This document shows, piece after piece, positions 2,750-27,838 of a stretch of DNA of 27,838 nucleotides (position 1 is the stretch's first letter; each line of letters starts with the position of its first letter). A program made the translations under genes and the position numbers. The stretch spans positions 1 to 27,838 of the IMG/VR virus record IMGVR_UViG_3300002514_000190; one strand, written 5' to 3'. Under the pieces are notes generated by a model. That model was not told the DNA's origin, made no database searches, and saw only the letters and a list, made by a program, of their open reading frames with translations. The stretch comes from a virus.

Positions 2750-2761
2750 AATTTCTTACCT

Positions 2762-5058: not shown

Positions 5059-5065
5059 TTTCTAT

Positions 5066-5070
5066 TCCTA
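5066..5070 (-). promoter_or_regulatory. Shine-Dalgarno fused to stop codon (TAGGA)
   Basis: The last codon of the 859-residue gene is TAG at 5070-5068, and the following bases make TAGGA. The AGGA part sits seven bases before the ATG at 5058, so the terminating ribosome is already on the next start signal. This is direct sequence evidence for coupled translation. The same arrangement recurs at 1660-1656. Confidence 0.65.
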
Positions 5071-10599: not shown

Positions 10600-10613
10600 T
10601 AGCACGGTTCCTC
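10597..10613 (-). promoter_or_regulatory. Shine-Dalgarno and TAATG coupled start
   Basis: The final codons of the 331-residue gene (Glu-Glu-Glu-Pro-Cys-stop) contain GAGGA at 10613-10609. The TAA stop at 10601-10599 shares its last A with ATG at 10599-10597. Spacing from GAGGA is nine bases to this ATG and three to the upstream GTG at 10605. The site therefore decides the start of the 982-residue protein and indicates termination-reinitiation coupling. Confidence 0.65.
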
Positions 10614-11594
10614 TTCGTCAGTGGTATACAGATCTCTAACAATATTAAGACGACTAGAGTTAGTAAGAACTGCCTCGGGCGTTAGCCCTACTGTATTTAG
10701 AATCTCAGCAGGAATATTAGCATCGCGATATATGTTCATATAATATTCAACGTTTGCGACGTCCCCAGATAATAGCGAAAGAGGCGCCGTAATGGTTTCT
10801 GCATCATTAGGCAAGAAGTTCATTTGTACCAAACTGGTGGTACTCCCCGACACGCTGCTGGATAGTGACACATGATATACTTCCATATCAAAATTTTCGC
10901 GTTCGAAGGTCGAGTTCTTTTCTAAAATATCCAGTACCAAATAATTTTCTATCAATGCCAGTCTCACTGGAATGTCTCCACTCGAAGCAGTGGGTAACAT
11001 CGGACTTATAGCCCGCGGGTCGGCTTCTGGGCCGAAATAAAGCTGATAATCTAAGTTGATATTCAATTGAGGGATCTCTGTAATAATCCCGTTGAGTGAC
11101 CCCGTTATCATGCTGCTTGTAAGATTGGTGACCATATAGCCTTGGCTGGATGAGATGGTGGTAGCGTTACGATTCAAAAGATTGACCGACCACGCAGGAT
11201 CATATTGAGAGGTCAGGGCCGCTGTTCCCAAAGGAAAGGCTGCCACATTTGCCACATTCTCAAACGGTTGTTGCATATTGAAGTTGTCTACTTTGTTGGC
11301 TGGATCTGAGTTTTCCTGCCAGTTGGAAGATGTAACATTCTGTAAAAATTGATCCACTCGGGTCTGGGCCCCTGAACGATTCGAAATCACCTTCAAGTTG
11401 GGTGTATCGTATCGGATGCGCCGGTCGGTGGCATTTTGGATTTCATTGCCGCCGGCATAACGATCGTTATAAAGGATATCGTCGTCAAAAAAAGCATAAT
11501 AGGTGGGGTTTAACGCGCCGAGAGATAATAAATACTTCCCATATTCAGTAAGCTGCAGTTCTATAACCTCTTCTTTTTTATTGAAAAATTCCAT
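10599..11594 (-). CDS. Phage structural protein with an N-terminal motif shared with the 326-residue protein
   Basis: This 331-residue protein starts MEFFNKKEEVIELQLTEYGK, then YLLSLGALNPTYYAFFDDDI and LYNDRY. I recall this N-terminus as a conserved signature of an unnamed structural family in large phages. The same skeleton (MxF, aliphatic pair, LTxxGxxxLxxG, aromatic/Phe, DDxI-Y) opens the 326-residue protein at 3742. The rest is acidic and Asn/Ser-rich, with no membrane segment or enzymatic motif, and ends DLYTTDEEEPC. The acidic tail codons double as the Shine-Dalgarno for the next gene. The ATG abuts the TAA of the giant gene (TAAATG). Its own Shine-Dalgarno, AGGGGA, lies in the codons for the giant protein's Lys-rich C-terminus. 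A role as connector between baseplate and the giant protein is conceivable, but only from position. Confidence 0.82.
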   Translation of the reverse strand: MEFFNKKEEVIELQLTEYGKYLLSLGALNPTYYAFFDDDILYNDRYAGGNEIQNATDRRIRYDTPNLKVISNRSGAQTRVDQFLQNVTSSNWQENSDPANKVDNFNMQQPFENVANVAAFPLGTAALTSQYDPAWSVNLLNRNATTISSSQGYMVTNLTSSMITGSLNGIITEIPQLNINLDYQLYFGPEADPRAISPMLPTASSGDIPVRLALIENYLVLDILEKNSTFERENFDMEVYHVSLSSSVSGSTTSLVQMNFLPNDAETITAPLSLLSGDVANVEYYMNIYRDANIPAEILNTVGLTPEAVLTNSSRLNIVRDLYTTDEEEPC

Positions 11595-14500
11595 TTACTT
11601 CCCCTTCTTCTTTTTTATCTTACCGTCAAATCCTTTAGACTCCGGCTTACCGTCTGCCTCAAAGCGAGGGGGCGCGGGGGGTTTGCCCTGGTCGGGGAGA
11701 TCCCAATCGGCTGGTTTTTTTCCGTCGGCTTTTTTATTATCTAGTGAGCTTTTCAGATTCGGTGGCATGGGCGCTGCACTTATGCGTTTTCTTCCTTCCT
11801 GAGTACGAGAGTCGTCGCGGCAGGCGGAGCTGTTAAACTTTGGAGCGGTTAGGGGATCATAATCAATAGTAATAGTCTCAGGCGAAGTGGCGTCGCGGGA
11901 TGCCCATTGGACATTTTCTTCAAGTTGGACCAATTCAACCAAAGATGCATAATCATAGGGCCAGTTATAGCTATATTTTTCGGTAATAGAAGCAGCTAAG
12001 GCGCCAGTATGCGGTGTAACCATAGCTCGACGGTTTCTTTCGAAATCGACTGCGACGCGTTTCTTCACCTTGAAAACCATCCACTGTAGTTCACTGGTGC
12101 CTTCTAATAAAATCTCTAGTAATTCTTTTTCTTCAACAATAACTTCAGAAGTTTCAAATTTAGTGCCTATAGTGGGGAGCAGGTTTTGCCACATATCACC
12201 TAGATCTTGCTGAGACATAGCGGCACTAAATTCGAATACATACATTAAAATTGGGTCGACCGTATCAAACTTAGTAAAATCTAGGCGGGGAGGGAAATTG
12301 TATTTCTTCATCGCGAGTTCTAAGTTCTTATAAGTTACACTAATGCTGTGTTCCTTGTCCGACAAATCAATAAACTTGCGTCGGTTGTTGTGGATTTCGA
12401 ATGGAACAGCAACAACGGCTTCTTCCCACTTAAACTCTTTCTTTAGGGCGCCGACGCGTTGTTGTTGACCAACTGGAAATCCTACAATCTTTCCTAAGTT
12501 GTTGGATGATCCAGTAGTAGTCGTGTCTAGGATAGCAAACACACCTTCCTTCGCTTTAGAGGGGACCGTCGCATATTGACGCCAGATACACTTGGTACCC
12601 AGGTCGCGGTATTGCTGGACTCCTGATGCCAGTCCGTACTTTGGGTTATAAGCGACTGGTGGCTTAGAAGCCGACGCGGCAGCGACATTCAAAATTGGTG
12701 TTTCATACTTGCTTTGGATCAGCCACCTAAATTTTTGTTCATTTGTGCCAGGAGGCACTTCGGTGATTTTCTCCATCAAATTATAACATTCATCAACCAT
12801 CATTTTTCCTACGTTGCCGCTGACATACACGGCCGGGTGGTTGATGGAACGATGTGATCGGTCCAGATTCATAGTAAGATTGGAAAATATTTCATCAACT
12901 GTCGGCTTCCCGTCATAAGAAGCTGTGTAGACAAGTTCCGCCTGACCGACACCGTTATAATAAGGAGGGGTAACATGGTCGAAGGTCGGATAATATTTAA
13001 ATCCGTTCCCCGGGGTGGGGTCCATTTCGTAGCCCAACAGAGGGGCTCCGAAGCCGGCTTCTCTTTGAGCCATCTCGAAAGTCTCCCGGTCGGGGAGATA
13101 TGAGCCACTATACGACGTGCGCAGCACTTTGAACTGTAGGGTGTACACCTCGCCTTTTTTTACCGTACCAAAGTCTTCTTCGCGCGCCGATACAAAAGAA
13201 GAAAACTCATTTGTAAAAACATCAGAGGTAGCACACAAAAAATTATCCATTGCAAGGGTATATAATTTCTTAGTTTCAAAATTACTAATGGTGATGAAGG
13301 CCTGCCCCTTGCCGGGAGTGGCAATCGATGTAGAGTTTTGCAAAAAGGAAGATATGCCATGTGCTTCGCTCTGAGAGGGGGCCGAATCGACCAAATTAGG
13401 GTAGGCGCTTTGGCCATTGAGTTTCAATAAATTCTCCTCATTAAAGAAAGTAGTCGGTCTATAGAGTGTCTCAAAAGGTACTCTATTTATGACGTAGTAA
13501 CGATTCGCGGCGTTGCCTTTCGCATTAGCCACCATACAATCACGGAAACCGATGATGGCGTCAGCTGGCGACTGCTCGGGTAAGCGATTATCGAATACAA
13601 CACCAGCTTGAGCAACGTTTGGTTGGATCCAGCCTCCGGAATGCATGGAATCAACGGAGGTGGCTGTCTTGTGGATCTTTTCGTTGACGATACAAAAATT
13701 AGAACACGCGAGGCCGGATTTGATGGTATTGTACATTATGCCTGGTGCGAATAGGGGCTCCATCGCAATTCTCATGGAGTGCGCGCGCGGTGCGTTTGTG
13801 TTCTGGATTACCGCGCCCATCGATTGGGAAAATAAAGCAGCCAATTCTAAAGTACGTTCAGAAGGATAGAAACCCTTATAAGGTAAAAATTTCAAAAACG
13901 CTCTGCAACTCAAACTAATTTTATCTCGCACAATGGTAAGATCACCGGACCGCTGTTCGTTTAGATCATCATCCACCACAGAAAAATATTTCAAAAAGTC
14001 TGAATTGCTATAGATTTTATAGAAATTAGAATCCCTACTGTCCGGATAGGTGGCACCCGTCAGAGAAAAAATATTATCTAGTGGGGCCAAGAAATCTCCC
14101 TGATTCTTATCAATATATACAGGCATCAACTCACTTATCCTGAATTCGGGCACAATTGAATAGTCTTTTCCGGAAGATCGGATATGATCCCGGTAAGTTT
14201 GTGGCGCCTGATAGGGCTCTTTATTAGCCTGAGTCGCTGCGAGGAACTCCCCATCGCCGGCGACGATCGCACTGTTGACATGAATAGTACCAGACCCCAG
14301 GGCTATTGGCATTTCCAGAATAGGGCTCGCCCGCAGAACACCAGGAGTGGCGTAAGAAGACCGCGGACCATGGGAAAACCGGGAATAATTATTTTGTAAT
14401 TCTCCGGCGCCGTCGATGGTGTTTACCTCCGGGAAAGTAGTGGTAAAATTATTATGACCATCAAGAGGCCAAATACTTTGACTTAGAGTCGACGCGCCCA

Positions 14501-17500
14501 TTGCGTTTGGAACCGCCGGTGCTCCCAACGCACTCCGCTCGTCTCGAAGCTTATTCCATATATTATCAATAGTAAACTGAGTCCGCTCTCGAATTTGATT
14601 GCTGTAGGCATTCTGAGCCGTTGGATAAACGCGCTGAATATAGTTGGCCACCAAACTGAGGCCGCTATTCACCGCAAAGTCGGCTATAGTATTATAGGAA
14701 TGGCCGTCGTCCACGATTTTGCTCAAATTCAGTCGGTTATTGAGACCCTGGTTGGTGAAGTATTCTAAATTATTGGCATAACTAACTTGCAGAGAAATGT
14801 TGTTGGCAGCATCTGAGTCAACTGTATTATCTTGGAAAGCAAAATAAACCGGCTTATTGTGGCTCACTACGGGGCGCTCAACATAATCAACAAATGTGGT
14901 GGACTTCAGGCCGCGGTCATAGCCACGTTGTCCAGAGGACACCAAAGTTGAGCCAGAATAAATATACGACATCTTTGGAACCCATGGAGGGGGTAGCAAC
15001 ACACCAATCTTGTTGGCTTTACGGAGTGCGCGGGCGACCTTGGTTTCTCCAGTTCGAATTTGCTTCCATGTAGGCCAGCCGTATGGGCCGTTGCGGTTGT
15101 TGGTGAGGATGTTGAGTCCGTCGACACTGTTGGGGCTGAAGCGTACAAGTTCCAGAGCGCTTCCTGTGCCGATTGTTCCCGCGCCGGACCAGAAGGACGT
15201 CCGGTTTTGGATAACACTGGTAGTATCGCCCCGGGTGGGGGAGCGCTCGGTGCCATCGCCGCCGGTGTTGGCGGGGAACGGATTCATGCGATACCAGGCT
15301 GCTAAGTCCGACCCGGCGCCGCCAAGAGCCGATGATTCTATATTAAAGGGGCGTCCTCCATTATATAAAGTAAGTACGTTGGCGGCAGATAACTCCTTTT
15401 CCCATATTCCAACATCACATATATATCCATCCCAGCCTTTGTCGCCATAATTTCCTATCGTCACGTAGTCGTCGCCGGAGATGTCGTCAACGCCCGCTCC
15501 GGGTGTGTCTGTCCCTTGTACCACTCCATCTAAATACAATGTCAGAGTATTAGTACCGATAGCGGTGCCTCCATCATAAGCAGCCACGACATGATACCAG
15601 CGATTGAGTTCAATGCGCTCGGAAAGGACCTCGCCGTAGGTAAACCCGGCTTCCATATGCCATACGATTTTGTGGTCACCCCAATTCATTCCCAGCACCC
15701 GGTTTGTGCCTAGGGCAATAATCTTGCCCTGATCTACCGGGCCGTAGCCGGTGGCATAGAACCAGGCCGAAACAGTAAAAGCAAGAGCATTAATACCGCT
15801 ATTTCCTATACGGGCGTCCCACGTGGCGGCGGTGCCGAAATCAATTTGGGAAGTACTTCCATTAAACTTGCCAGAATACGTGCCCACATCAAGAGGGGAA
15901 TATTCATTGGCACGTAAAAGATGAGTCTTCTCGTCAACAGTATCGACAACCATACGACCCGCATAACCTGCAAAATTCTGTTTATAGGACTCCCCGTAAT
16001 AATCTGCTGCTGGCATAACAGCGCCGGAGATCAGTTGTGTAAAGCTTCGAGCGTCACCGCACCTTGGGGCTTCCAGACCAAAGATGGTGGACCCCGATTT
16101 CATCGACGCGTCTACCCAGGAATATTGTTCCGTCGACCTCGGGATCTGATGTTGTATATAGAGGTTGTCATATGTCTTCTCTAGGGCAACAGTCACAGGG
16201 AGATGATGTAGACCAGTCGGTAGTGTTAAATCTGTAGCTGTCCCGTCAGTGCTCGCCGGCGGGTTCGGCGCGGAATTCAAAATTGTGGCAGTACTGTCAC
16301 CCACGGCAGTATTAAAACTATACCAAGCAATCAAACCGTTCATCACGCTTTGGTCGGTAAATAATCCTCTTTGGGGGCGTCTAGCGACTCGTCCCGCATT
16401 ATATATAACACTCGCTTCTCCGGCAGTTAGAGCGCGGTCCCAGATTCCACAGTTTTGGATATAACCGTCCCAAGTGCTGACGAAGAAACCTTCATTGCCG
16501 ATGTAACCGTTGAGCCCCCCGATCGCCGAGGGACTGCCCATAGGTACGCCGACGTTTGTATCAAGGACTCCATCAATATACATGTCAATGTCCCCCCCTA
16601 TGCCGCCGGAATATGTTGCAACCACGTGGTACCACTTATCAAAATCTAGGGCGCTTGAGTCGGTGTAGCCGTCCGGGACAAAGGCAATAGCCATTTTCAT
16701 CCTCAACTTACCGGCATTCCAGAGGAGTTGGCGATCGGAGCTTGCAAAACTGAATACGTTCCCGTTGCCGCCCTCTCCTGCACTTTTTGCATAAACCCAT
16801 GCCGACAAGGTAAACGCCTTGGCGTCGGCGCCGGCGCCCCCAATCAAAGAGTCCCAAACCGTATCTGTTCCAATGTCCACTCGACTATCTGCCCCGTCAA
16901 ACTCACCGGTGCACCTAGTCACTTCTTTTATAACAGTACGGCCATTTCTGTTGGTCTTATGCCACGAGGGGAGGGTGACATAGCTACTAGAAGGCACAGA
17001 GCCGTACGCGGCGTCATGGCCGAACTGTCCACAGTGGAGCGTTGCCCGCTGATCGAGTCCGCGGAGCTTGTTGATCTGGTCTCGGACTGTAATGGTTTTG
17101 CCAAACACCGAAGTGTCAATTGAAGCGGAGCCCGAAAGACCATAATTACGAATAGAGAGATTGTGATACGGTAGGGCGTTGTACACCGATAATGATTCAT
17201 GAGCCGGGTCCATATATCCTCTGGACATGACCTCATAGCCGCTGCCGGCGAAACGGTTGACGATAATAGACTGGTTGGAGTTGTCTCCGGATCTGTTGGG
17301 GAGGGCGTAGTTGAGGCCACTGTTAATGTACTTAAATGGGGCCGTTTTATGAATGGGGGGGGCCGAGTAAAGGGTGATATCACGATTCCCTATTTGATCG
17401 TAAATGGTCGTGCTGTCATCGCCGGCGCCATTGCCCATACGCCACCAAGCCAATGGGGCCAGTGCTGCCAAATCGAGTTGAATACCATTGTTGTAAAGAG

Positions 17501-20500
17501 TTCTGACGGCACCCGCATGCAGGGCGCGGTCCCATACCGCAATATCGTTCATATAACCATTAAAGGGGGTCGAAATTCCCGTGTCAACACCTAGCTGAAA
17601 CCCCGGAGTTCCCAGTATGCTGTTCGGTGTGGGTGCGCCGGCACCGGGGGTCGTGACATTAACACCATTAACATAAATTTGAAGCGGGCTCGTGGTTCCG
17701 CCGGCGAAAGTGCCAACAACATGATACCATGTAGCGCCGCCGACGGTAATGGTCGTGTAGCCGACATTGGCCCCCGACGCATAAAGTATCAAGACGCCGC
17801 TGGCGTGCCATTGAAGTAAGCGTGCACTGATCCCGGCAAACGTAGGGTCCCCAATACACCAAATGATATCCCCACCTGTTAGGGTACTGAAGTTTACCCA
17901 AGTAGACACCGTAAACGGTTTTGCCAATCCACCGGCGCCACCCACTAAAGCATCCCACGTCGCGGCGTTGCCGTTATTGCCAAAATCAGCCGTTCCATCA
18001 AACAAAACTGATTTTTGATTGGTGACTGCGCGAGGAGTCAACGGCATATCACCCCTCACTGCCAACGTCTCAGGATAGGGAGCAAAGTCAAATGATTGAT
18101 CATTGAAGAATGGATCGTTGAGTTCGCGACCGCTGGACTGAACAACTTGATAATTCTTGGAATAGTTTCCGATAGGGTCGTGAAGGATGGTGCCAGATAA
18201 GCGATCCGCCGGGTCAGCGGTCGACATCAGAATATTCTTAATATTGACCGGTCGTTTTGCATATTCGGACCGAGCAAGATTAGCTTTTGGACGATAAAAG
18301 AGATATCCCTTGGGGGCCGATCCCGAAACAGATTCTGGATCGGGATATTGAGGACCCGTTATTCCCAGTGCGCCCTTACCGCATGATACTGCTTCCTCAC
18401 ACAAACCAAGCTTAAGCATCCACCCCTCAGGACGATTTTCTCTACTATCAAGATTGTTCTTTCCTGGGCTACCCGCACTATAATGATTAAGCTCAATATG
18501 TCGATGCTGTCGTCCCCCCACAAATTTTTCTGTGAAAGGCCCTTGAGCGGGAATATCATTACTGTAAACGATATCGTGATGCAAGTTGGTAATCATAACA
18601 CCTGAATGATACAAATCAATTACTTTGGCATTGTAGCCTGTTTTCACCGAAGAGCTATAAAGACTGAAAGGGGCCAGTACATTGCCGTCCATCCGGTTTT
18701 TGGTGGAACTCTTGCCGGGCTTGGGTCCTCCACGGTTGATGTCAGGATTCATGGAGAAGCCCAAGCGTTGTTTGAGACTGGGATAATATATATCAGTGGT
18801 GTCGACCAGGTCTTCCACCTCCTTTTGAAAGCCCAACATAACGTTTACTGGAATATTGGTACCATTTACCACTCGTCCTGCGGGCGCCGTGGCGCCATAA
18901 ACAAACTGACTTCTCTTGTTGGGGTGGAAGCCAACGCCGCCCATGGCAACACTGCCTTCGGTGCCAAAGCGTACTGGGGAATCGGCTGCAATGTTGCGTG
19001 ACTTTTCAATGGCCATCAAAAGATCCTGGCGAACATAGTTGGTTGCGGCAGCGCCGCTTCCTGTTAGGGCTTCGGATTGCGCACGGTTCGCGAAGTATTG
19101 CCACCAATAGCGCTTTTCGGCTTGCCTCATGTCGCGTACGTCGGTATAAGTACCACCGCCCACGGCTAACTGATCAACCGCTGTCATTGCTGTTACGTTG
19201 CCGTAACCAGGGGGATCGACGGCTGGATCGTCAATCCAGTAGTTGCCAACTGCGTCATTACTTCCCTTCATATCGTAAATGGTGTCGCCATCCGGCGTGC
19301 CAGAGCCGTTGTCTCCAGAGCCCATGCGCCACCAAGAAACTAAATCAGAATAAGCGGAATGAGTGGCAAGGTTTTGGGGACCTGGATTAAAACCAGTTGC
19401 CGGCGCGAAACCAGTAGTCTTGTTATATATCTCTGCTACTTCCGGTGCACTTAGCTTCTTTCCCCACAAACTCATTGTGGCAATCTCGCCGTCGCGGAAG
19501 CAGTCATTGTGCGACATCCCGCCGGCGTTTAATATACTTCCGATTATGGCGCCGTGGCCGCCATGCGGCATAGGAGTCTCGATTACGCCCGTCGGTGTTG
19601 TATCCGTAGTCATGGTCTTAGCCACTCCGTCGACATAAATAACAGGTACATTCGCCGTGGAAGAGCCGTCGTAACAGATGGCTATATGTCGCCAAGAATC
19701 TCCAGACAAGCTAGCATCCGTTGTGGTCCACTCACCGTTTGCGCCGGAGAAGTTAACACCAAATTTTATTTCTCCTGTGCTCAACAGCCACGCCCTCCGG
19801 TAGCCGACTTCGCCAAACTGGAACCAAGTACGCGTGCCGTCTGACGGATTGAACTTTAGCCAACCAGCAAATGTAAAGGCGGTTGGCGTAGTCCACGAAG
19901 CATCAATTGCAACATTATAACCCACAGCTTGTGGGAATCCCCCGGGTTGGGTGAATGCAACATATTTATCATTATAATAGCTATAAGAACGAGTGGTCCC
20001 TGGTAGTCCCGGAGAATGTAAATACTGCCACTCCTTCGTGCGAATAGGGTTAGAAGAGCCAACTTGGCGCCGTGTATAGGCAGTATTGGCGAAGATGCCT
20101 GTTCCGGCCGGGAAATCAGGAGGGCACGCCATGGCTGTGGCATCATTGCCGGTGCCCCATACTGAACCGTGTATGGGATTTAGTTTATCTTCCAAGAAGG
20201 GGAACTTGTTTTGATATTTGCTACGTTCTAAAACATGACTTTCAATTACTGTGCGTACATTTTCGGCGAAATCAGTAGAAGCCGGAACAAGTTGATTGAG
20301 CATGACAGTAAGCGACGAATCAAACCACTTATAAAATTCATAAAATTTATTGAAATCTATCTCATCGTTGCCCACTGTTGCAAAGAATTTTTGTCGCAGA
20401 TATTTAAGTCCCTTGTATTCTTGGCGATAACGATTAACTGGCGCACCTATAAGAGTATTCAAATCTTTTAGGGTGGCAAAATAGTTGAGGATTTCCTCAG

Positions 20501-23500
20501 AAATGCTTTGATAGAGGCTCTTTTCAAAAGCAAAGTAATAATGGATAGGCCGCGAGTCCATAACAAAAACATCTTGCTCGGCAGCGTTGAACACCTTGAC
20601 CATCTCCGTCGAATAAACGTTCTCCGGAAGAGTCTGCTTGGAGGCGATCACATAGTCTTTATCGATTGGAGAGGTAGAACTCGCCGCAAAATCAAATCCA
20701 CGAGCGGAGTATTGCTTTCCTAGAATCTCTCCAAGCCATCCATTGTTGGCTGTGGCAGTAGCGTTTGATCCGGAGGATTCATCCACCACATCAAAGCGAC
20801 CCAGCGCATTGGAACCAGTATTGGTGCTGAACTCCCAATTGAAAACTAAAGTATCAAACGTGGAGATTTCGCCAAACGACGCTGAGGTATTAAAGGGATA
20901 GGCATAATAATGGGGTGTACTCGTGCCGGCATTTTGAGTATCATGAGCATGCGAATTCAATGTGCCATCCTCTAGGTAGTCTAACCAGAAGCGACAAGAA
21001 TTAACTTTTACATCTGTTCTTTCACGGACACTTCCGGTAAAGTTAGTGCGGTGGGCACCGACGAAAACACGCTTACTACCCGTAACAAAAGCATACCGTC
21101 GGCCTGCGCCAGGAGAAGTCAATGATCCCGTAATAGTAAATTCGTTCATGAGGACACCGGCGTCGACATTCACGCCATGTAACTCTATAACATAATTGGT
21201 CGGAGTAACACCATCTACCTGTGTAAGAGGATAACTTTCCGGTTTAACACGTACGGACAGATTCCAGTTGGTGTCTTGATAAACATCTTCATATAAATCC
21301 GAAACCATTCGCGGGAGAACGTGCCCAGCAGTTCCAGTAAGCACAAATCGAACGTTGTCGGACTCTAGTTCGTCTCGGACGGCATACACCTGAAAGTTGG
21401 TCACATCAGTGGCTGCCCAAGTAGGAGTAGCTTCCGAACCGGCGTTCCCATGAGCACCAAACAAGCTAGCGCTGATAGTATTTGTCCCCTGATAGCCTAT
21501 TGCAGCAGCACTAAGCTTTTCAGGAAAGTAAATCTCGCTTTCTAAAGTAAACGCATAACCATTTCGCATATTGGCTGATGCTGAAATATAGCCGGCTGTG
21601 TTAGTGGTGTCAGCAGGATTCTGATATTGTATAATAGTAGCAGTGCTATTATCCCCCGTGTTAAAATTAACAAATTTATCCGGGACTGCGACATTTTTGC
21701 GATTGGTGCGCATCTGTGCTTCAATATCGTTGGCATAAAGATTGAGTTTAATAAGCTCATCATCAATGCCGAAACACCGCATGAGGTTGCGAAATGATTT
21801 TTCAGTTCCTTTGGTCTTATAAATATAAGCTAAGTTGTTGTAAATATTTTGATATATCGTATTCTTGACGTCCGTCAAGGTTTTTTCATAAACCCGAAAT
21901 TCACTCCTGTCGGCGAGTTTTTCTAGAACATCTGCGTCCAGGAAAATGTCTGGAGACACAAAACCATAAGAATTAAGAAGCTGGGCTCCGTACGGAAGAG
22001 GCTTCTCGCTGCCACTAGGATATTCAACGCTGCGCAAATTTGTGAGAGCTTCGGCCTTAAGCTGATAATCATCAAAATAGCTGGACATAATTTGAGTTAG
22101 ATAGCGAATGTTGTTGGAACCTTCTTCGTCTTCCTCTCGAATCCATTGTGGCATCGTGTTATAAATGTTAGCGTTATTGTTTCCATCATAATCTGATCCT
22201 GATAGATGCAACGAAGAGGACAAAGCTACCACTGATGGGTGGAAACTATAGATAATGGGATCTTTGTATTCTTTGATGGCCGCGGCAGATATAACAATGG
22301 CGGAGCCCGTATTACGAGAGCTGGGCGTGTAGCCAGTCCAGGCGCCATTCGTCACCCGGCCGGAATAATCTAATACAGTTTTATCGGTTGCCGTGACTCC
22401 AGTAATGCCTTCGTTGAACTTATAATAAACCCCCAACAAAGTGTTAACATCTTCGGTGGTTTCTACAAACGGTAGCGGGTCGTCGTTAGTGCCACCTCCA
22501 ACTTGAGTAAACCAATAACGTCCCACATCTTGAGAAGTTCGCTGTGTCTTCCAATAGCGGAACTCGTCCAAAGAAGCCGAGAGCTTGCCGTAGCCGGCCA
22601 GGGCCGTACTTCCCGACGGGGATGTGATAAGGGCTCCAATATACGCTTGGAGCGCGCCTGTGACCTCGTTGATGCCTGTCGTTCCATAGGTGCCTTCATT
22701 ATTCAGTTCCCCATCGACGTAGAAGCGAGTTTGAATGCCTGCGGAAGCTGATTTGAAAGTGAAAGCATAGTGGTGCCAATTTCCATCCGCCACTGATGCA
22801 CTAGTAAAGGTGCTCGCGCCCACACTCTGGCTTACAATGCCCGTAGTGCCGGACAAGAGAGTAACCCGGAAAGGATCCAGGCCAGAAGTGGCACCAGTCA
22901 ATTCAATCCGCAGTCGACCATAACTCGTCGAGCTACTTAATGCACTATTCCAGAGGTCGAAAACTACTTCTTTTCTGGTAAGCGGCCGGATGAATGTATC
23001 TTTCTTTAGCCAGAATTCAACACTGGTCCCCTTGGTAGAGAGGTCATACTTGAGATTGGTTTCTCGGTTCTTATCTGGTTCATAATAATTGGACCCGGTA
23101 AATTTGGTGGCATGAGGAAGCATTCCATTCGCATTTGCGTGAGGGCCACCATAAAAATGAATATATTCTTGCGCAGAAGATGATCCATAACCATCCGCCA
23201 TGTTACCTGTTCCCCACCCTTCGGCAGAGAAAATAATGTACCCATTAGTGCGTGGATATAAATTATCATAAATGTACAGATCAATATCGAGCGATTCATT
23301 TTCCCACTCTAAGCGCTCTCGACGAGAACCATCATAAGGAAAAGTACCATAGATTCGCTTTATAGAAGAATCATAATATTCAGTTGCTAGCCCATATCGA
23401 GCAAAGTTTTCAGGCTTTGAAAAATCAACACGCGGAATAAACCGCCGTTCTTTGATAATATCTTCTTCGTGATATCCGACCGATTCAACTTCGCCGCCAA

Positions 23501-23570
23501 TCTCGTCGCCAGTGAGGCCAGAGATTGCATTTACTTTTTCGGCTTTGGCAAAGTAATTCTTTAGAGACAT
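11595..23570 (-). CDS. Giant 3991-residue virion protein with five LamG lectin modules
   Basis: The N-terminus (about residues 1-130) carries RFIPRVDFSKPENFARYGLA and PYDGSRRERLEWENESLDID, a pattern I recall from very large unnamed structural proteins of aquatic phages. LamG/concanavalin A-like modules lie near residues 156-415, 1216-1443, 1849-2067, 2217-2448 and 2561-2800. Each has the W-x-H core strand (DGNWHHYAF, GDSWRHIAI, GATWYHVVG, FDKWYHVVA, LNRWYHVVA), then a YVDG-type turn and a W-x-x-x-L-x-x-x strand. A more diverged sandwich spans about 627-880. A backbone signature, NGPYGWPTWKQIR, lies just after the last module. The C-terminus is Pro/Lys-rich and ends KIKKKKGK. LamG folds often bind glycans, so a surface-binding role on the tail is inferred. 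It follows the 507-residue gene by seven bases and has no clear Shine-Dalgarno. The frame is open throughout, so this is one polypeptide unless processed. Confidence 0.88.
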   Translation of the reverse strand: MSLKNYFAKAEKVNAISGLTGDEIGGEVESVGYHEEDIIKERRFIPRVDFSKPENFARYGLATEYYDSSIKRIYGTFPYDGSRRERLEWENESLDIDLYIYDNLYPRTNGYIIFSAEGWGTGNMADGYGSSSAQEYIHFYGGPHANANGMLPHATKFTGSNYYEPDKNRETNLKYDLSTKGTSVEFWLKKDTFIRPLTRKEVVFDLWNSALSSSTSYGRLRIELTGATSGLDPFRVTLLSGTTGIVSQSVGASTFTSASVADGNWHHYAFTFKSASAGIQTRFYVDGELNNEGTYGTTGINEVTGALQAYIGALITSPSGSTALAGYGKLSASLDEFRYWKTQRTSQDVGRYWFTQVGGGTNDDPLPFVETTEDVNTLLGVYYKFNEGITGVTATDKTVLDYSGRVTNGAWTGYTPSSRNTGSAIVISAAAIKEYKDPIIYSFHPSVVALSSSLHLSGSDYDGNNNANIYNTMPQWIREEDEEGSNNIRYLTQIMSSYFDDYQLKAEALTNLRSVEYPSGSEKPLPYGAQLLNSYGFVSPDIFLDADVLEKLADRSEFRVYEKTLTDVKNTIYQNIYNNLAYIYKTKGTEKSFRNLMRCFGIDDELIKLNLYANDIEAQMRTNRKNVAVPDKFVNFNTGDNSTATIIQYQNPADTTNTAGYISASANMRNGYAFTLESEIYFPEKLSAAAIGYQGTNTISASLFGAHGNAGSEATPTWAATDVTNFQVYAVRDELESDNVRFVLTGTAGHVLPRMVSDLYEDVYQDTNWNLSVRVKPESYPLTQVDGVTPTNYVIELHGVNVDAGVLMNEFTITGSLTSPGAGRRYAFVTGSKRVFVGAHRTNFTGSVRERTDVKVNSCRFWLDYLEDGTLNSHAHDTQNAGTSTPHYYAYPFNTSASFGEISTFDTLVFNWEFSTNTGSNALGRFDVVDESSGSNATATANNGWLGEILGKQYSARGFDFAASSTSPIDKDYVIASKQTLPENVYSTEMVKVFNAAEQDVFVMDSRPIHYYFAFEKSLYQSISEEILNYFATLKDLNTLIGAPVNRYRQEYKGLKYLRQKFFATVGNDEIDFNKFYEFYKWFDSSLTVMLNQLVPASTDFAENVRTVIESHVLERSKYQNKFPFLEDKLNPIHGSVWGTGNDATAMACPPDFPAGTGIFANTAYTRRQVGSSNPIRTKEWQYLHSPGLPGTTRSYSYYNDKYVAFTQPGGFPQAVGYNVAIDASWTTPTAFTFAGWLKFNPSDGTRTWFQFGEVGYRRAWLLSTGEIKFGVNFSGANGEWTTTDASLSGDSWRHIAICYDGSSTANVPVIYVDGVAKTMTTDTTPTGVIETPMPHGGHGAIIGSILNAGGMSHNDCFRDGEIATMSLWGKKLSAPEVAEIYNKTTGFAPATGFNPGPQNLATHSAYSDLVSWWRMGSGDNGSGTPDGDTIYDMKGSNDAVGNYWIDDPAVDPPGYGNVTAMTAVDQLAVGGGTYTDVRDMRQAEKRYWWQYFANRAQSEALTGSGAAATNYVRQDLLMAIEKSRNIAADSPVRFGTEGSVAMGGVGFHPNKRSQFVYGATAPAGRVVNGTNIPVNVMLGFQKEVEDLVDTTDIYYPSLKQRLGFSMNPDINRGGPKPGKSSTKNRMDGNVLAPFSLYSSSVKTGYNAKVIDLYHSGVMITNLHHDIVYSNDIPAQGPFTEKFVGGRQHRHIELNHYSAGSPGKNNLDSRENRPEGWMLKLGLCEEAVSCGKGALGITGPQYPDPESVSGSAPKGYLFYRPKANLARSEYAKRPVNIKNILMSTADPADRLSGTILHDPIGNYSKNYQVVQSSGRELNDPFFNDQSFDFAPYPETLAVRGDMPLTPRAVTNQKSVLFDGTADFGNNGNAATWDALVGGAGGLAKPFTVSTWVNFSTLTGGDIIWCIGDPTFAGISARLLQWHASGVLILYASGANVGYTTITVGGATWYHVVGTFAGGTTSPLQIYVNGVNVTTPGAGAPTPNSILGTPGFQLGVDTGISTPFNGYMNDIAVWDRALHAGAVRTLYNNGIQLDLAALAPLAWWRMGNGAGDDSTTIYDQIGNRDITLYSAPPIHKTAPFKYINSGLNYALPNRSGDNSNQSIIVNRFAGSGYEVMSRGYMDPAHESLSVYNALPYHNLSIRNYGLSGSASIDTSVFGKTITVRDQINKLRGLDQRATLHCGQFGHDAAYGSVPSSSYVTLPSWHKTNRNGRTVIKEVTRCTGEFDGADSRVDIGTDTVWDSLIGGAGADAKAFTLSAWVYAKSAGEGGNGNVFSFASSDRQLLWNAGKLRMKMAIAFVPDGYTDSSALDFDKWYHVVATYSGGIGGDIDMYIDGVLDTNVGVPMGSPSAIGGLNGYIGNEGFFVSTWDGYIQNCGIWDRALTAGEASVIYNAGRVARRPQRGLFTDQSVMNGLIAWYSFNTAVGDSTATILNSAPNPPASTDGTATDLTLPTGLHHLPVTVALEKTYDNLYIQHQIPRSTEQYSWVDASMKSGSTIFGLEAPRCGDARSFTQLISGAVMPAADYYGESYKQNFAGYAGRMVVDTVDEKTHLLRANEYSPLDVGTYSGKFNGSTSQIDFGTAATWDARIGNSGINALAFTVSAWFYATGYGPVDQGKIIALGTNRVLGMNWGDHKIVWHMEAGFTYGEVLSERIELNRWYHVVAAYDGGTAIGTNTLTLYLDGVVQGTDTPGAGVDDISGDDYVTIGNYGDKGWDGYICDVGIWEKELSAANVLTLYNGGRPFNIESSALGGAGSDLAAWYRMNPFPANTGGDGTERSPTRGDTTSVIQNRTSFWSGAGTIGTGSALELVRFSPNSVDGLNILTNNRNGPYGWPTWKQIRTGETKVARALRKANKIGVLLPPPWVPKMSYIYSGSTLVSSGQRGYDRGLKSTTFVDYVERPVVSHNKPVYFAFQDNTVDSDAANNISLQVSYANNLEYFTNQGLNNRLNLSKIVDDGHSYNTIADFAVNSGLSLVANYIQRVYPTAQNAYSNQIRERTQFTIDNIWNKLRDERSALGAPAVPNAMGASTLSQSIWPLDGHNNFTTTFPEVNTIDGAGELQNNYSRFSHGPRSSYATPGVLRASPILEMPIALGSGTIHVNSAIVAGDGEFLAATQANKEPYQAPQTYRDHIRSSGKDYSIVPEFRISELMPVYIDKNQGDFLAPLDNIFSLTGATYPDSRDSNFYKIYSNSDFLKYFSVVDDDLNEQRSGDLTIVRDKISLSCRAFLKFLPYKGFYPSERTLELAALFSQSMGAVIQNTNAPRAHSMRIAMEPLFAPGIMYNTIKSGLACSNFCIVNEKIHKTATSVDSMHSGGWIQPNVAQAGVVFDNRLPEQSPADAIIGFRDCMVANAKGNAANRYYVINRVPFETLYRPTTFFNEENLLKLNGQSAYPNLVDSAPSQSEAHGISSFLQNSTSIATPGKGQAFITISNFETKKLYTLAMDNFLCATSDVFTNEFSSFVSAREEDFGTVKKGEVYTLQFKVLRTSYSGSYLPDRETFEMAQREAGFGAPLLGYEMDPTPGNGFKYYPTFDHVTPPYYNGVGQAELVYTASYDGKPTVDEIFSNLTMNLDRSHRSINHPAVYVSGNVGKMMVDECYNLMEKITEVPPGTNEQKFRWLIQSKYETPILNVAAASASKPPVAYNPKYGLASGVQQYRDLGTKCIWRQYATVPSKAKEGVFAILDTTTTGSSNNLGKIVGFPVGQQQRVGALKKEFKWEEAVVAVPFEIHNNRRKFIDLSDKEHSISVTYKNLELAMKKYNFPPRLDFTKFDTVDPILMYVFEFSAAMSQQDLGDMWQNLLPTIGTKFETSEVIVEEKELLEILLEGTSELQWMVFKVKKRVAVDFERNRRAMVTPHTGALAASITEKYSYNWPYDYASLVELVQLEENVQWASRDATSPETITIDYDPLTAPKFNSSACRDDSRTQEGRKRISAAPMPPNLKSSLDNKKADGKKPADWDLPDQGKPPAPPRFEADGKPESKGFDGKIKKKKGK
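15170..15890 (-). repeat. LamG module 5 of the giant protein
   Basis: This module, about residues 2561-2800, begins GKFNGSTSQIDFGTAATWDA, then AFTVSAWFYATG, LNRWYHVVAAYDGG, LYLDGVVQGTD and DVGIWEKELSAANVLTLYNG. Its tail is LAAWYRMNPFPANTGG, extended by a Gly/Thr/Arg-rich loop before TTSVIQN. It is followed by the backbone signature NGPYGWPTWKQIR. Confidence 0.78.
16225..16920 (-). repeat. LamG module 4 of the giant protein
   Basis: This module, about residues 2217-2448, begins GEFDGADSRVDIGTDTVWDS, then LIGGAGADAKAFTLSAWVYA, FDKWYHVVATYSGG, MYIDGVLDTN and NCGIWDRALTAGEASVIYNA. Its tail, LIAWYSFNTAVGDSTATILN, has lost the RMG residues of modules 2 and 3. The entry strand is closely similar to modules 3 and 5. 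Confidence 0.78.
17370..18025 (-). repeat. LamG module 3 of the giant protein
   Basis: This module, about residues 1849-2067, begins KSVLFDGTADFGNNG, then TWDALVGGAGG, PFTVSTWVNFS, ATWYHVVGTFAGG, IYVNGVNV and DIAVWDRALHAGAVRTLYNN. It ends in the tail LAWWRMGNGAGDDSTTIYDQ. It is closest to modules 4 and 5 in its FDG/WDxxxG entry and WDRAL strand. Confidence 0.78.
19240..19925 (-). repeat. LamG module 2 of the giant protein
   Basis: This module, about residues 1216-1443, shows PTAFTFAGWLKFNPSDG, GDSWRHIAICYDGSS, VIYVDGVAKTM and ATMSLWGKKLSAPEVAEIYN. Its tail is LVSWWRMGSGDNGSG then GDTIYDMKGSND. The WWRMG tail is nearly identical to that of module 3, so both derive from one LamG-plus-tail unit. 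It sits between backbone segments ending NPIRTKEW and starting KRYWWQYFANRAQ. Confidence 0.75.
20930..21695 (-). other. Diverged LamG-like beta-sandwich in the giant protein
   Basis: About residues 627-880. The succession GYAFTLESEIYFPEK, NWNLSVRVKPESYP, NYVIELHGVNVDAG, KRVFVGAHRTNFTG and SCRFWLDYLEDGTLNSHAHD has the strand order of a jelly-roll lectin-like domain. It lacks the W-x-H core seen in the five clear modules. I take it as part of the backbone rather than a sixth copy of the same repeat. Structure prediction would decide this. Confidence 0.45.
22325..23105 (-). repeat. LamG module 1 of the giant protein
   Basis: This module, about residues 156-415, begins KFTGSNYYEPDKNRE. Core features are TSVEFWLKK, DGNWHHYAFTF near residue 260, FYVDGELNNEG and SLDEFRYWKTQRTSQDVG. 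It ends with a tail, GVYYKFNEG then TVLDYSGRVTNG. It is more diverged from modules 3-5 than they are from one another and probably belongs to the ancestral part of the protein. Boundaries are approximate. Confidence 0.75.
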
Positions 23571-23600
23571 ATATTAATTATTCTTCAACTCGAAATTTGA
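23571..23600 (-). promoter_or_regulatory. Weak ribosome binding region of the giant gene
   Basis: The seven bases between the TAA of the 507-residue gene and the ATG of the giant gene are TTAATAT. The nearest purine run is GAAGAA, which encodes the last two Glu codons and ends about ten bases from the ATG. No AGGAG-like motif is present, unlike most neighbouring genes. Initiation probably relies on ribosomes arriving from the upstream gene. Confidence 0.45.
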
Positions 23601-25101
23601 ACGTTTGAGGTTGTTCTATCCAACTTCCTATACTATCATTATAATAGGCTAATTTAATGCCGTACATATAATCTTTCTCTAACAATGACATATCTAGGTC
23701 GAAATAATTACCGCTTACGTCATAAGAGAGATAAGTGCTTTTTTGATCGTTACTTCCAGTGCCAAATGAAATCACCTCTAAATTATCAACTACTCTGTAG
23801 ATAGCATATGAGGCACTTGTAACAATATCAGTCGGATTATTGGCGACTGCTTTCACATAAATTGTCGGAGACCAGTTCTTATCCCGGATAAACGTACGGA
23901 ACCGGGCTGTTTCTGAACGCTTATAAGAGCCTCTAAGATCACGAATAGTCGTAGAATAATTAAAAGTAGGTGCATTATTATAGTTTGGAGGAGTCTTCGG
24001 AGCAAATGAGCTGGTAAAATATTCCACACTTGCGGAACGCCATACATCAAAGATTTTCTCCAACGGAGTCGTTGCAGCAGTGAGGGCAACCTGAACGGAA
24101 TAAACCCCTGTCGAGACCCAACTACCGGTAGCTGTTGCATTACTATCTGAAAGGATAATGCGTGAACCAGTAGGAACGGTAGACCCTGAATAAAAAGAAA
24201 CACTAATGTTGCCCGTTCCCACAGATGGTATATCGACGAGACGCCCACGCACATAGTTATACAAGTAAAGGGTGTTGAGATTATCCGCGGCCGGGGCCAA
24301 CGAACTCGAATAATAAAATTGCCCTCGTTGATCACTGATACGAGAGTCCCATCGGGCTTCTAGAACAGGTCGCTTGAAGAAAAATTCTGTGCTCCGGGAA
24401 AAGAACTTTTTAGTATAGTAAGTTTGCGTTGCGCCGGTTAAGTTATTGATAAGACTCCCGGAATCTGCGCCAGTCGAGCTTGAATAGTATGCTTCTTGAC
24501 TCGCTGTGAGGTGTATTCCCACACCGTAGTTGTCTTCTCCGCCGCCGGCGCGAGTAGCAATCCACTGTTCCACGAGGCCGCTAATGTCTAATTCTATATC
24601 TTCCCATCCTAGTGGAAACGTAACTGTATAATTATTACCAGCGCTAGAGGAAATATAATCTCCTCCGATAGAACTCCACCCAGCACCAGTACTGGCCGAG
24701 ATCCAGTTAGCTTTACCCAAATCTTGATAATTATCCATATCAAGGCCAGTTCCTTCTTGCCAAGAACGCGAAACAGGGAGTACATTTAACGTAAAGCCTT
24801 GAGGGAGAGTCCACGGCGTTTCGGCGTTATACATTCTCAAAAAGAAGGAAACACTACCTGAGGCTGGAATACTACGAGCGGCCCGGGCGCGTGTGATCTG
24901 ATTAATTGGAAACTGTATGAGACCACGAGAGAGTTCTGGCGACGCGCCGGCGGCAGATGACGAGAGCTGTCCATAAATAGAAAAGATTTCAATTGAATCA
25001 GCATAGCCCATGTTCGAGCCGGTTCCGCGGATGGTGAGGTTGGCTTCAAAAGCATTCGTAATAGTAGTATCAATGCTGGCGGTGTAACGGAAAATGGCCA
25101 T
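23578..25101 (-). CDS. Tail/baseplate-associated protein with a DNRLRE-like beta-sandwich
   Basis: This 507-residue protein starts MAIFRYTASIDTTITNAFEA. Residues about 20-255 follow the plan of DNRLRE-type carbohydrate-associated domains. They show an early SRGLIQFPINQI strand, FFLRMYNAETPWTLP, then VSRSWQEGTGLDMDNYQDLG and KANWISASTGAGWSS. Next is ELDISGLVEQWI with GVGIHLTASQE, then TKKFFSRSTEFFFKRPVLEARWD split over the closing strands. The second half (about 275-507) has two Ig-like stretches, one starting NTLYLYNYVRGRLVDIPSVG. I recall that YVRGRL motif from other phage structural proteins. It lies between the gp6-like wedge and the giant LamG protein, so a role linking wedge to periphery is plausible but inferred. 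The ATG abuts the gp6-like TAA, with AGGGAG ten bases upstream inside that gene's end. Confidence 0.8.
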   Translation of the reverse strand: MAIFRYTASIDTTITNAFEANLTIRGTGSNMGYADSIEIFSIYGQLSSSAAGASPELSRGLIQFPINQITRARAARSIPASGSVSFFLRMYNAETPWTLPQGFTLNVLPVSRSWQEGTGLDMDNYQDLGKANWISASTGAGWSSIGGDYISSSAGNNYTVTFPLGWEDIELDISGLVEQWIATRAGGGEDNYGVGIHLTASQEAYYSSSTGADSGSLINNLTGATQTYYTKKFFSRSTEFFFKRPVLEARWDSRISDQRGQFYYSSSLAPAADNLNTLYLYNYVRGRLVDIPSVGTGNISVSFYSGSTVPTGSRIILSDSNATATGSWVSTGVYSVQVALTAATTPLEKIFDVWRSASVEYFTSSFAPKTPPNYNNAPTFNYSTTIRDLRGSYKRSETARFRTFIRDKNWSPTIYVKAVANNPTDIVTSASYAIYRVVDNLEVISFGTGSNDQKSTYLSYDVSGNYFDLDMSLLEKDYMYGIKLAYYNDSIGSWIEQPQTFKFRVEE

Positions 25102-26898
25102 TTATTTGATGCTCCCTACAATATCGACGTTAGGAAATTTCAATTCAAAAATACTATTCTGGTCTGATCGAATGGCCCTAGCATCGGACGACATAGCTCG
25201 AATAGGATCGAAATTACTATCTGAGTAAAGGCCGCCGGTCTTGCCAATGATCTGCACATCAACAACATCCACTACGCCAGCGACTTTGTTGAGTTGGCGA
25301 TAAATATCGTTAATGGTAATAGATTCACCAATTTCAAAGCGATTCCGTAGATAAAAGGTGCGGATATGACGATTGGCTTCATTTAGAATGGTATAACGAT
25401 TGCTGTTAAGATCAATTGTAAGGGAATATTTGATACCAAAATTCACGATCTTCGCATCCAAGATATCAATTGTATCATTGATCATTTTATAATTAACGAG
25501 CCAATTCTTCAAATTATCTTTGAGAGTTTGATTCGCGGACGTAAGCTTCCCAGAAGTATCTTCAGAGATAACAAAAAGATTCAGATTTCGTTTAAAAGCA
25601 TCAAAATCGCGGACTATGGATACGCTCCTGACGGCGCCGAACTTGGCCGGCATTGCATAACAGACAGCGTTATAATCTTCCGCAGTAACCGCACGATTCT
25701 GGGTAGCAAAATATCCATACACTCGTTGTTTGATATCATCTGCGGTAGGCAATGTAACACTCCCTACAAATGGAGCTTCATTTGTAACTTCCAAAGAATT
25801 GAGTACTGCGGTCCTTGCCGTGGCAGACAGGCTTCCCTGCGAGGCAAATTTCACAAGAGGGTTCGCAACTGTCACAATGGTGTTGGTTGCTGCGTTGACA
25901 TCCTGTGTACTATTAAGCCGATATCCAATCCTCAATATGGTATTCGCCGGAGCGATGCCGAATTTATCGGAGGATATCAACTTAGCGGGATCAAAGCCGG
26001 CGTCCGTAATATAATTTCGCCCTTTGAGATCAAGCATTAGGTTGGTCGGGTCTACAATAGCTTCGGATAGAAGCTCCGAGTCAGATCCGTAGCCAAACTG
26101 TAAATAACTGGCCACTCCGTCAGACTCCACAACAAAGCGCCGAGGAACAGGAACTGCTTTAAGAATATTAGGTACCGTGGCTTGGGTAGCCGTAACATTA
26201 CGAATGGCTTTGAAAATAACATTTTGAGACAGATTATCCACCTCATAATATTTATGTCCTTCAGAATCTACTACACTCAAGATAGCCGAAACGTTAACAT
26301 TATCCAACTGAACTTTGCGGAAGCGCTCAAAATCTCCCAATTCCACAGATTGAAAAGCTACGCGTCCAGACACTGCGCGGGCCTGTGCACGGATAACGTA
26401 ACTGGTAGGAAGCCCCGTAGTGTCATCTACCGTACCCACCACTACTTGATTCGTACTAGTAGAGAACACTACGTCTTGGAGAATTGTATAGAGGCCACCT
26501 CCTGTGGAAGAAAAAGTTGAGCCTGCGCGAAGGATGGGAGCGAGACTCAAGTCGGGGCCCATGCTGGTAGTGGCCGCTGGGATTTTGATATAAAAAGTCA
26601 GGATACCATAGGAAGAAGGATTGCGGTCAATCTTATAACCAAATTGGCGCGCATGCTTTATCACGTTATTATATTCAACGGCCGTTTCTAAAAAACTCTC
26701 GTTTGCTTGATAATCTAAGTAAAAAGAAAGGATATCTCCGATATAAGAAACTGTGTCGAGCATGAGAGACCCGAACGAGGCTTCATTAAAATCTTTGTAG
26801 GTATCCGGATAATACCTTTTAGCAAAGTTTTCGAGGTCGCGACGAATAGAGTCAAAGTCGCGGCTCGTGTAGTCAATTGGTTGTAGTTTCTTGGCCAT
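25102..26898 (-). CDS. Baseplate wedge protein, T4 gp6 / P2 J-like
   Basis: This 598-residue protein begins MAKKLQPIDYTSRDFDSIRR and continues FGSLMLDTVSYIGDILSFYL and NESFLETAVEYNNVIKHARQ (residues about 43-85). These are hallmark motifs of the gp6/J baseplate family, especially the version in T4-like phages of aquatic bacteria. The family core reappears around residues 395-415 as NRAVTAEDYNAVCYAMPAKF. A C-terminal segment near 530-550, INDIYRQLNKVAGVVDVVDV, matches the end of J-like proteins. In T4, gp6 dimers join neighbouring wedges into the ring around the hub and change conformation on sheath contraction, so the same role is expected here. Its length is close to that of T4 gp6. It follows the gp25-like gene by 29 bases with AGGAC as Shine-Dalgarno. 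The pairing with gp25 is the classical order in contractile tails. Confidence 0.93.
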   Translation of the reverse strand: MAKKLQPIDYTSRDFDSIRRDLENFAKRYYPDTYKDFNEASFGSLMLDTVSYIGDILSFYLDYQANESFLETAVEYNNVIKHARQFGYKIDRNPSSYGILTFYIKIPAATTSMGPDLSLAPILRAGSTFSSTGGGLYTILQDVVFSTSTNQVVVGTVDDTTGLPTSYVIRAQARAVSGRVAFQSVELGDFERFRKVQLDNVNVSAILSVVDSEGHKYYEVDNLSQNVIFKAIRNVTATQATVPNILKAVPVPRRFVVESDGVASYLQFGYGSDSELLSEAIVDPTNLMLDLKGRNYITDAGFDPAKLISSDKFGIAPANTILRIGYRLNSTQDVNAATNTIVTVANPLVKFASQGSLSATARTAVLNSLEVTNEAPFVGSVTLPTADDIKQRVYGYFATQNRAVTAEDYNAVCYAMPAKFGAVRSVSIVRDFDAFKRNLNLFVISEDTSGKLTSANQTLKDNLKNWLVNYKMINDTIDILDAKIVNFGIKYSLTIDLNSNRYTILNEANRHIRTFYLRNRFEIGESITINDIYRQLNKVAGVVDVVDVQIIGKTGGLYSDSNFDPIRAMSSDARAIRSDQNSIFELKFPNVDIVGSIK

Positions 26899-26927: not shown

Positions 26928-27323
26928 TTAGTTGTTGTTCACAGGAATCAATAAGCTTGTTGAAATTTGCAGCGGTAAAATGGTAAATTGCAAAGTCATC
27001 GACAATGAGTTGGGAAATAAGTCCGGATTGTTCTCAACATAATTGTAATCAATATTATCGATTCGAATAAATTTCATATAAGTGCGCACCTGCGAGTGAA
27101 TGCGTTCGGTAATTTGGGAGTAAGTCGCCTGATCATTATTCTCAAAAAAGAATCGCCTAAGGCCGACGCCAAAATTGGGATTCATAATTCGCTCGCCAGG
27201 ATTGGTGAGCAAAAGCATTTTCAAATTTTGAGTTGCTAACTCACCAAAATTAGTATTAAGATTATACGCCCCAAACACTTCGTTCACTGTAAGGGGTAAT
27301 TTAGGTGAAAGTCCTGCTGCCAT
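26928..27323 (-). CDS. Baseplate wedge protein, gp25-like
   Basis: This 131-residue protein matches the gp25/W family in length and in its core motif NPGERIMNPNFGVGLRRFFF at residues 41-60. In characterised relatives this segment packs in the baseplate core. The family was once called lysozyme-like, but the members known to me act structurally. In T4 the protein forms the wedge core with gp6 and helps start sheath assembly. The N-terminal 30 residues (LPLTVNEVFGAYNLNTNFGE) are typical of the aquatic-phage branch, and the C-terminus is beta-rich, ending in Asn repeats. The start ATG has AGGAG at 27337-27333, nine bases upstream. The gene lies 26 bases downstream of the preceding stop and 29 bases before the gp6-like gene, consistent with one transcript. 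Confidence 0.93.
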   Translation of the reverse strand: MAAGLSPKLPLTVNEVFGAYNLNTNFGELATQNLKMLLLTNPGERIMNPNFGVGLRRFFFENNDQATYSQITERIHSQVRTYMKFIRIDNIDYNYVENNPDLFPNSLSMTLQFTILPLQISTSLLIPVNNN

Positions 27324-27349: not shown

Positions 27350-27838
27350 TTAACACTCTAATGGATTATTTCCCTCAGAAAGTTCAGGTGAATCACCATC
27401 TCCCTCCAAAGCGGCCGCTGCTTCCCTCTTTAGGAGATCAAGCAAAATATACAAAATGCCAAACGGAAGGGGTGGTATCATCAACATTCCACTAAGAGTG
27501 CCCGTAAATTTAACTCCGTCTAAAGTCAGCTTCGGTAAAATATTATTAATTATTTCTTCATTTTCCAACGCACCGGGTGCGCTGGCGTTGACACCCGCTT
27601 TGAGGCCCGTCTGCATCGCAAATTGTGCCAGACAGAGCATAATGCTCACCACATCTTCACCAGTGAGGGGGGGCAGCCCTAACTCCTCGGTCATTTCGTT
27701 GATTGGACCTAGGCCGTTGCTCATATCAATAGCTTTGATCATTTCACTAAACGCCATTCCCGTTACATTACGCACCACTTTCCAGATAGCCACGTGAGGA
27801 TCGATCATTTCTGCGAGGCCCTTCAGAATCATTATTGG
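27350..27838 (-). CDS. Unidentified phage protein, C-terminal part (5' end beyond window)
   Basis: The frame is open from the right edge (bases 27838-27833 encode Pro-Ile) through MILKGLAEMIDPHVAIWKVV to a TAA at 27352-27350. An in-frame ATG at 27832 exists, but the lack of an upstream stop and the mid-protein look of the first residues make a longer protein more likely. The visible 162 residues include an Asn/Gly/Pro-rich acidic middle and PLTGEDVVSIMLCLAQFAM. Then comes a hydrophobic Pro/Leu stretch (GMLMIPPLPFGILYILLDLL) about 40 residues from the end that could be a membrane-active or buried segment. The tail is acidic and ends GNNPLEC. I recall a DPHxAI-type stretch in very large unnamed phage structural proteins but cannot assign it. 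Its place directly before gp25 suggests a tail or baseplate component. Confidence 0.7.
   Translation of the reverse strand, partial: PIMILKGLAEMIDPHVAIWKVVRNVTGMAFSEMIKAIDMSNGLGPINEMTEELGLPPLTGEDVVSIMLCLAQFAMQTGLKAGVNASAPGALENEEIINNILPKLTLDGVKFTGTLSGMLMIPPLPFGILYILLDLLKREAAAALEGDGDSPELSEGNNPLEC

Follow-up and report, generated by a model that had tools for sequence, protein, structure and literature searches.

A giant LamG-bearing protein encoded behind gp25 and gp6 in marine Far-T4-like phages: a probable gp7-type baseplate wedge subunit

Locus organization and integrity of the giant gene

The window analysed here is a 27.8-kb IMG/VR virus fragment (27,838 nucleotides) in which a single frame, read from 23570 to 11595 on the minus strand, stays open for 11,976 bases including the stop; the other large ORFs also lie on the minus strand. 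An earlier note, made from the sequence alone, had described this 12-kb frame, and its length, coordinates and neighbours agree with ours, the strand being minus. In the order of transcription, the locus contains:

26928..27323, minus strand: gp25-like baseplate wedge protein (phrog_261, 1.4e-17)
25102..26898, minus strand: gp6-like baseplate wedge protein (phrog_219, 8.5e-23)
23578..25101, minus strand: 507-aa protein with homologues encoded between gp6 and the core gene of phages immuto and Mel-JY01 and of record LR756508
11595..23570, minus strand: giant ORF, 3991 aa (ORF list; 33 complete homologues)
10599-11594, 7651-10605 and 5068-7647, minus strand: genes for 331-, 984- and 859-aa proteins after the giant gene, conserved in the giant family

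The gp25 and gp6 gene calls of the earlier note are thus backed by PHROG matches, and the homology of the 507-aa protein is strong (hhalign 99.6%, E 8e-25). The 331-, 984- and 859-aa products belong to no known family and have no clear counterpart in the immuto or Mel-JY01 loci; a profile of the 331-aa protein gave one weak match in phage S-CREM2 (0.003). These three are likely further baseplate-periphery proteins.

Toward the ends of the window, two products of 363 and 411 residues (414-1649 and 1658-2749, minus strand) have the look of tandem paralogues, their C-terminal ends being alike by eye. The 363-aa family profile matches several adjacent Mel-JY01 genes and one immuto gene, indicating a multi-copy tail protein family common to them. 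A truncated gene for a RuvC-like Holliday junction resolvase (3-413, minus strand; PHROG 2.6e-6) directly follows the tail genes. At the other end, 27350-27838 (minus strand) encodes the hydrophobic C-terminal end of a large upstream protein of ~1900-2090 aa, which spans 447-6203 in the related contig L008; in L017, L022, L038 and L057 this large upstream region is read instead as one ORF of ~1450-1580 aa and another of ~500-640 aa.

A scan of IMG/VR found relatives of the giant protein on 67 marine contigs, 33 of them complete, measuring 2782-4274 aa, sharing one common backbone and free of internal stops, a degree of conservation well outside chance. The order gp25, gp6 (~598 aa), ~500-aa gene, giant gene is repeated in those loci that reach upstream, and complete loci carry genes of ~330, ~950 and ~900 aa after the giant gene. 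Relatives are 60-80% identical to the window protein over residues 1-1150 and 29-56% identical over residues 2800-3900. When the gene is compared with those of L008, L049 and L009, pS is ~0.8, near saturation, while pN is 0.14-0.31, the pattern of a coding sequence whose backbone is under purifying selection. A frame change splits the gene in two relatives, L012 (19399/19425) and L050 (11680/11748), either through sequencing error or as a real lesion. This is what could be said for the frame being an artefact, whether misassembly or fused genes; the two changes fall at different places, and the 33 complete frames from many metagenomes, together with the saturated pS and low pN, leave that reading with a negligible probability. 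An assembly error joining genes, listed by the earlier note among the findings that would refute its description, is ruled out by the same complete frames.

Domain anatomy of the giant protein

LamG domains were called at the cut-off of Pfam PF13385 (Laminin_G_3), which the giant protein passes at five places (E 2e-73 overall), so the five LamG modules read earlier from the translation are borne out. The protein is organized as follows:

22521..23060, minus strand: LamG 1, residues 171-350, fixed in the whole family (PF13385; LG fold ~108-430)
21711..22253, minus strand: first half of the putative wedge core, residues 440-620, with homology to residues 406-580 of immuto gp109
21759..21854, minus strand: KGT-helix signature, residues 573-604, YKTKGTEKSFRNLMRCFGI (profile score Z 7.1)
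20646..21713, minus strand: second LG-like sandwich, residues ~620-975, between the core halves (model, structure alignment)
20211..20558, minus strand: second half of the putative wedge core, residues 1005-1120 (second hmmsearch segment, aligned with 662-793 of immuto)
19434..19928, minus strand: LamG 2, residues 1215-1379, optional cassette, hot-spot 1 (PF13385)
17505..17966, minus strand: LamG 3, residues 1869-2022, optional cassette, hot-spot 2 (PF13385)
16413..16865, minus strand: LamG 4, residues 2236-2386, optional cassette, hot-spot 3 (PF13385)
15375..15830, minus strand: LamG 5, residues 2581-2732, optional cassette, hot-spot 4 (PF13385)
11871..15173, minus strand: conserved C-terminal region, residues 2800-3900 (family alignment; without known relative)

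LamG 1 is present in all 34 proteins (the 33 relatives and the window protein), and its fold (~108-430) aligns with the LG domains of PAPP-A and pentraxin (VIA, Z ~19). In the relative L047 (10001-22825) the fixed LamG is detected as two pieces, 173-272 and 316-499, which suggests interruption by an extra insert. Residues ~620-975 are predicted to form a beta-sandwich, with pLDDT mostly 70-88, and two-domain LG structures align across residues 109-967; the "diverged sandwich" of the earlier note is therefore real. The helical segments 440-620 and 1005-1120 lie between and around these LG sandwiches. We describe the N-terminal ~1150 residues as a predicted wedge-type core split by two LG-fold sandwiches.

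Pfam finds no module type besides LamG in seven sampled middle regions of the family, and a profile of the N-terminal region yields only weak, irrelevant matches among PDB sequences. For the C-terminal region, the profile has no match among PDB sequences, there is no consistent PHROG match, and tblastn of phage records with the last 1199 residues finds no relative. No relatives of the giant protein were found in bacterial and archaeal genomes.

The C-terminal region bears directly on the suggestion that the giant protein replaces several separate peripheral baseplate proteins, that is, that it is a fusion standing in for T4 gp7, gp8, gp10, gp11 and gp12. Its size and position would suit such a fusion, as would the failure of PF09215 (gp8) and PF07880 (gp9/gp10) to pass cut-off in ten partial records, a weak search across divergent families in which no positive control registered for either model. 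Against this, the ~1100-aa C-terminal region matches no gene of the T4, P-SSM7, HTVC008M, immuto or Mel-JY01 loci, and it has neither a PDB sequence match nor a consistent PHROG. In addition, genes annotated as gp8 and gp9 lie beside the gene for a 7124-aa protein in P-SSM7. The core looks like one gp7-type subunit, the C-terminal part matches no separate gene in the loci compared, and a fusion of this kind is quite unlikely.

Exchange of LamG cassettes

The fixed LamG is the only one in 14 of the 33 relatives, which measure 2782-3183 aa. The other relatives and the window protein carry one to four additional LamG modules, nearly all at four sites, at backbone positions 1137-1426, 1844-2058, 2216-2427 and 2564-2816. 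The history of these modules differs from that of the backbone. L014 and L058 share a site-1 LamG that is 91% identical on backbones that are 51% identical, and their nucleotide identity, ~45-70% ahead of the LamG, climbs to 90-100% across it and drops to <50% beyond it. Similarly, an L009 LamG is 73-74% identical to those of L013 and L014 on backbones of 54-56% identity. The converse is seen in L008 and L009, whose backbones are 87% identical while their site-2 LamG modules are 23% identical, with sharp edges. Among 153 pairs compared at site 2, the cassettes have a median identity of 28%, the backbones one of 53% and the fixed LamG modules one of 57%. At the sequence level, these comparisons demonstrate that optional LamG modules move laterally between phages at four fixed sites.

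Rapid divergence in place fails to account for the L014/L058 case, in which a 91% identical LamG sits on 51% identical backbones. The G+C content of the cassettes (0.52, against 0.46 for the conserved backbone) is only suggestive: a circular-shift test of cassette GC3 gave 153/3891, and the fixed LamG carries the same bias.

Core homology and lineage

When phage records were searched by tblastn with the N-terminal 1160 residues, the sole clear match was gp109 of Flavobacterium phage vB_FspM_immuto (YP_010114574), a 1265-aa "hypothetical protein" encoded a few genes after gp6 in the same order behind gp25 and gp6. The family profile aligns to immuto gp109 in two colinear segments (hmmsearch 7.5e-20), and hhalign gives a probability of 97.9% (E 4e-13). 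Immuto gp109 is one third of the giant's length, lacks LG modules both within the aligned core and ahead of it, has no second sandwich, and is unrelated in its C-terminal part. The Microcystis phage Mel-JY01 protein WWT39511 (1336 aa) and its relatives occupy the same position with a homologous core and have an LG-like sandwich after the KGT helix, at the same insertion point as in the giant, but lack the optional LamG cassettes and the 2800-aa extension. Judged by these alignments, the giant core is homologous to the immuto gp109/Mel-JY01 WWT39511 family, the two parts of the predicted helical core following in matching order.

The capsid gene points the same way. Gp23 was found in five of ten related records, and the viruses of the giant family are, by capsid sequence, T4-related and Far-T4-like, since the nearest records to the L049 capsid gene are Mel-JY01, immuto and LR756508.

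Relationship to gp7

The gene that follows gp6 in T4 is gp7; in P2, gpI comes after gpJ. The giant gene lies near the gp25 and gp6 homologues, separated from them by a single ~500-aa gene, an arrangement also seen in immuto and Mel-JY01. A profile was built from T4 gp7, P2 gpI, IME-SM1, HTVC008M and P-SSM7 around the KGT helix; residues 573-604 of the family score Z 7.1 against it, the next best column scoring 3.3, and the corresponding column likewise ranks first in the immuto family (4.7). As an HMM, the KGT profile ranks the giant family first among 6,806 ORFs, but individual members have E-values of 0.06-1 and are not independent of one another. An HPA motif, spotted by eye and tried as a second gp7 signature, failed the profile test.

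In profile comparison, which the earlier note had proposed against T4 gp7, gp8 and gp10, hhalign assigns the giant 1.6% against T4 gp7 alone, yet aligns it exactly at KGT, and assigns the giant/immuto/Mel core 66% against a pooled gp7 profile. The compact IME-SM1 protein scores 94% against T4 gp7. No curated gp7 or gpI profile is significant on the window protein; PF21428, PF23786 and PF09684 give nothing at E<=1, a matter of detection thresholds, as T4 gp7 itself misses PF23786 and the 3341-aa post-gp6 protein of GAP32 likewise matches none of the three. The T4 gp7 domains PF21428, PF21427 and PF21456 (helical, V and VI) are present in T4 gp7 and absent from the giant.

Structure prediction, also proposed earlier, succeeded for the LG sandwiches and returned the helical core at low confidence. 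Most of residues 512-626 and 976-1120 have pLDDT <50, and AlphaFold of the compact core of an immuto-like relative, with 29 sequences, reached a pLDDT of 44, so that the core fold is unproven. Foldseek and VIA searches with the model of residues 1-1200 returned answers for the LG domains only; no baseplate structure is among the matches listed, which has no bearing on the low-confidence core.

The absence of any gp7 family profile above cut-off is one argument for regarding the giant as a free-standing adhesin, or a protein resembling a tail fibre, that docks on the baseplate, another gene encoding the real gp7. LamG content fits an adhesin, and the downstream 331-, 984- and 859-aa genes are also uncharacterised. 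These three are unconvincing as an essential wedge protein, however, because they lack a clear counterpart in immuto and Mel-JY01, while the core of the giant has homologues at the identical place in the immuto, Mel-JY01 and LR756508 loci and carries the KGT signature. We regard a stand-alone adhesin as unlikely. Position, the KGT motif, core homology and weak profile scores suggest that the giant core most likely fills the role of T4 gp7, held probable, not proven, on the KGT scores and the 66% hhalign value. The giant is probably a gp7-type wedge subunit, grown very large, of a marine Far-T4-like contractile-tailed phage.

A proposed model of the giant as a wedge subunit

A structural precedent is offered by Vibrio phage XM1, in which gp17, the gp7 orthologue, forms a core bundle with two copies of gp16 and holds the spikes on loops; the proposed trigger runs from spike to gp17 to sheath initiator (PMC10457771). 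By analogy with XM1 gp17, the LamG modules may be receptor-binding parts built into the wedge chain. In the model we propose, one giant copy per wedge would join the gp6 dimer via the helical core, and the long middle and C-terminal part would project to the baseplate rim, where the LamG modules would bind host-surface glycans or glycoproteins. Because the modules sit on the wedge polypeptide, binding could be passed straight to the gp25/sheath trigger, and exchange of cassettes would retarget the phage or give it further receptors without disturbing the wedge joint. The earlier picture of a large adhesin displaying many predicted binding sites is plausible in this form and gains strength from the optional, laterally swapped LamG cassettes. 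In its strongest version, which we put forward tentatively and consider somewhat doubtful, the wedge subunit is itself the receptor-binding protein, LamG cassettes set into fixed hot-spots of a gp7-type scaffold are traded between phages as host-range modules, and adsorption would act on the sheath trigger directly, with no need of a separate fibre. Host-recognition parts may be carried by the wedge itself, and expandable wedge subunits would let host range evolve inside the baseplate core, beyond the tail fibres.

Far-T4-like phages occur widely in aquatic habitats, and no T4 "core" genes for host interaction could be detected on contigs of this group (PMC4360716). The giant family is a concrete candidate for their host-contact apparatus, with an exchange mechanism that is visible. 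An annotation rule is also suggested, whereby a large "hypothetical" or "virion structural" gene behind gp6 is often a gp7-type wedge gene with lineage-specific inserts.

Comparison with other phages

T4 gp7 (1032 aa), P2 gpI (176 aa) and XM1 gp17 (242 aa) share with the giant their position after a gp6 homologue. The KGT helix is found in T4 gp7 and P2 gpI, and LamG in none of the three. A longer protein of similar make-up is PSSM7_090 of Prochlorococcus phage P-SSM7, a "virion structural protein" of 7124 aa encoded directly after gp6 of its gp25-gp6 pair; the size of the window protein is indeed exceptional among phage structural proteins, as the earlier note remarked, but has this still larger precedent. 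P-SSM7 ORF090 is likewise a giant chain with LamG domains and carries PF23786 (Baseplate_wedge, 2.6e-9) at its KGT core. It differs in being longer, in the location of its core (671-722), in an extra YHYH domain and in its cyanophage lineage; apart from the core motif and the LamG fold, it shows no detectable similarity to the window protein. In this protein (L210, 6053-27427) KGT lies at residue 694, a LamG at 2302-2415 and HPAS at 3483; if both motifs belong to the gp7 core, ~2800 residues are inserted where the sandwich of the window protein sits.

ORF122 of Synechococcus phage S-CREM2 (1937 aa, half the giant's size) is encoded directly after gp25-gp6 and is homologous to the P-SSM7 core, with 37.8% identity. 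Mass spectrometry of virions purified on CsCl detected it through 91 unique peptides (PMC10665884), which, along with the gp25/gp6 synteny and the immuto/Mel-JY01 core homology, lends support to the virion and baseplate role first proposed for the giant. Post-gp6 products reach 3341 aa in GAP32 and 1016 aa in HTVC008M. Given the precedents in P-SSM7, GAP32, HTVC008M and S-CREM2, large wedge proteins encoded after gp6 form a class already known, if little described, of which the giant family, sharing with these precedents the core motif and LamG fold and no further similarity, is a new branch.
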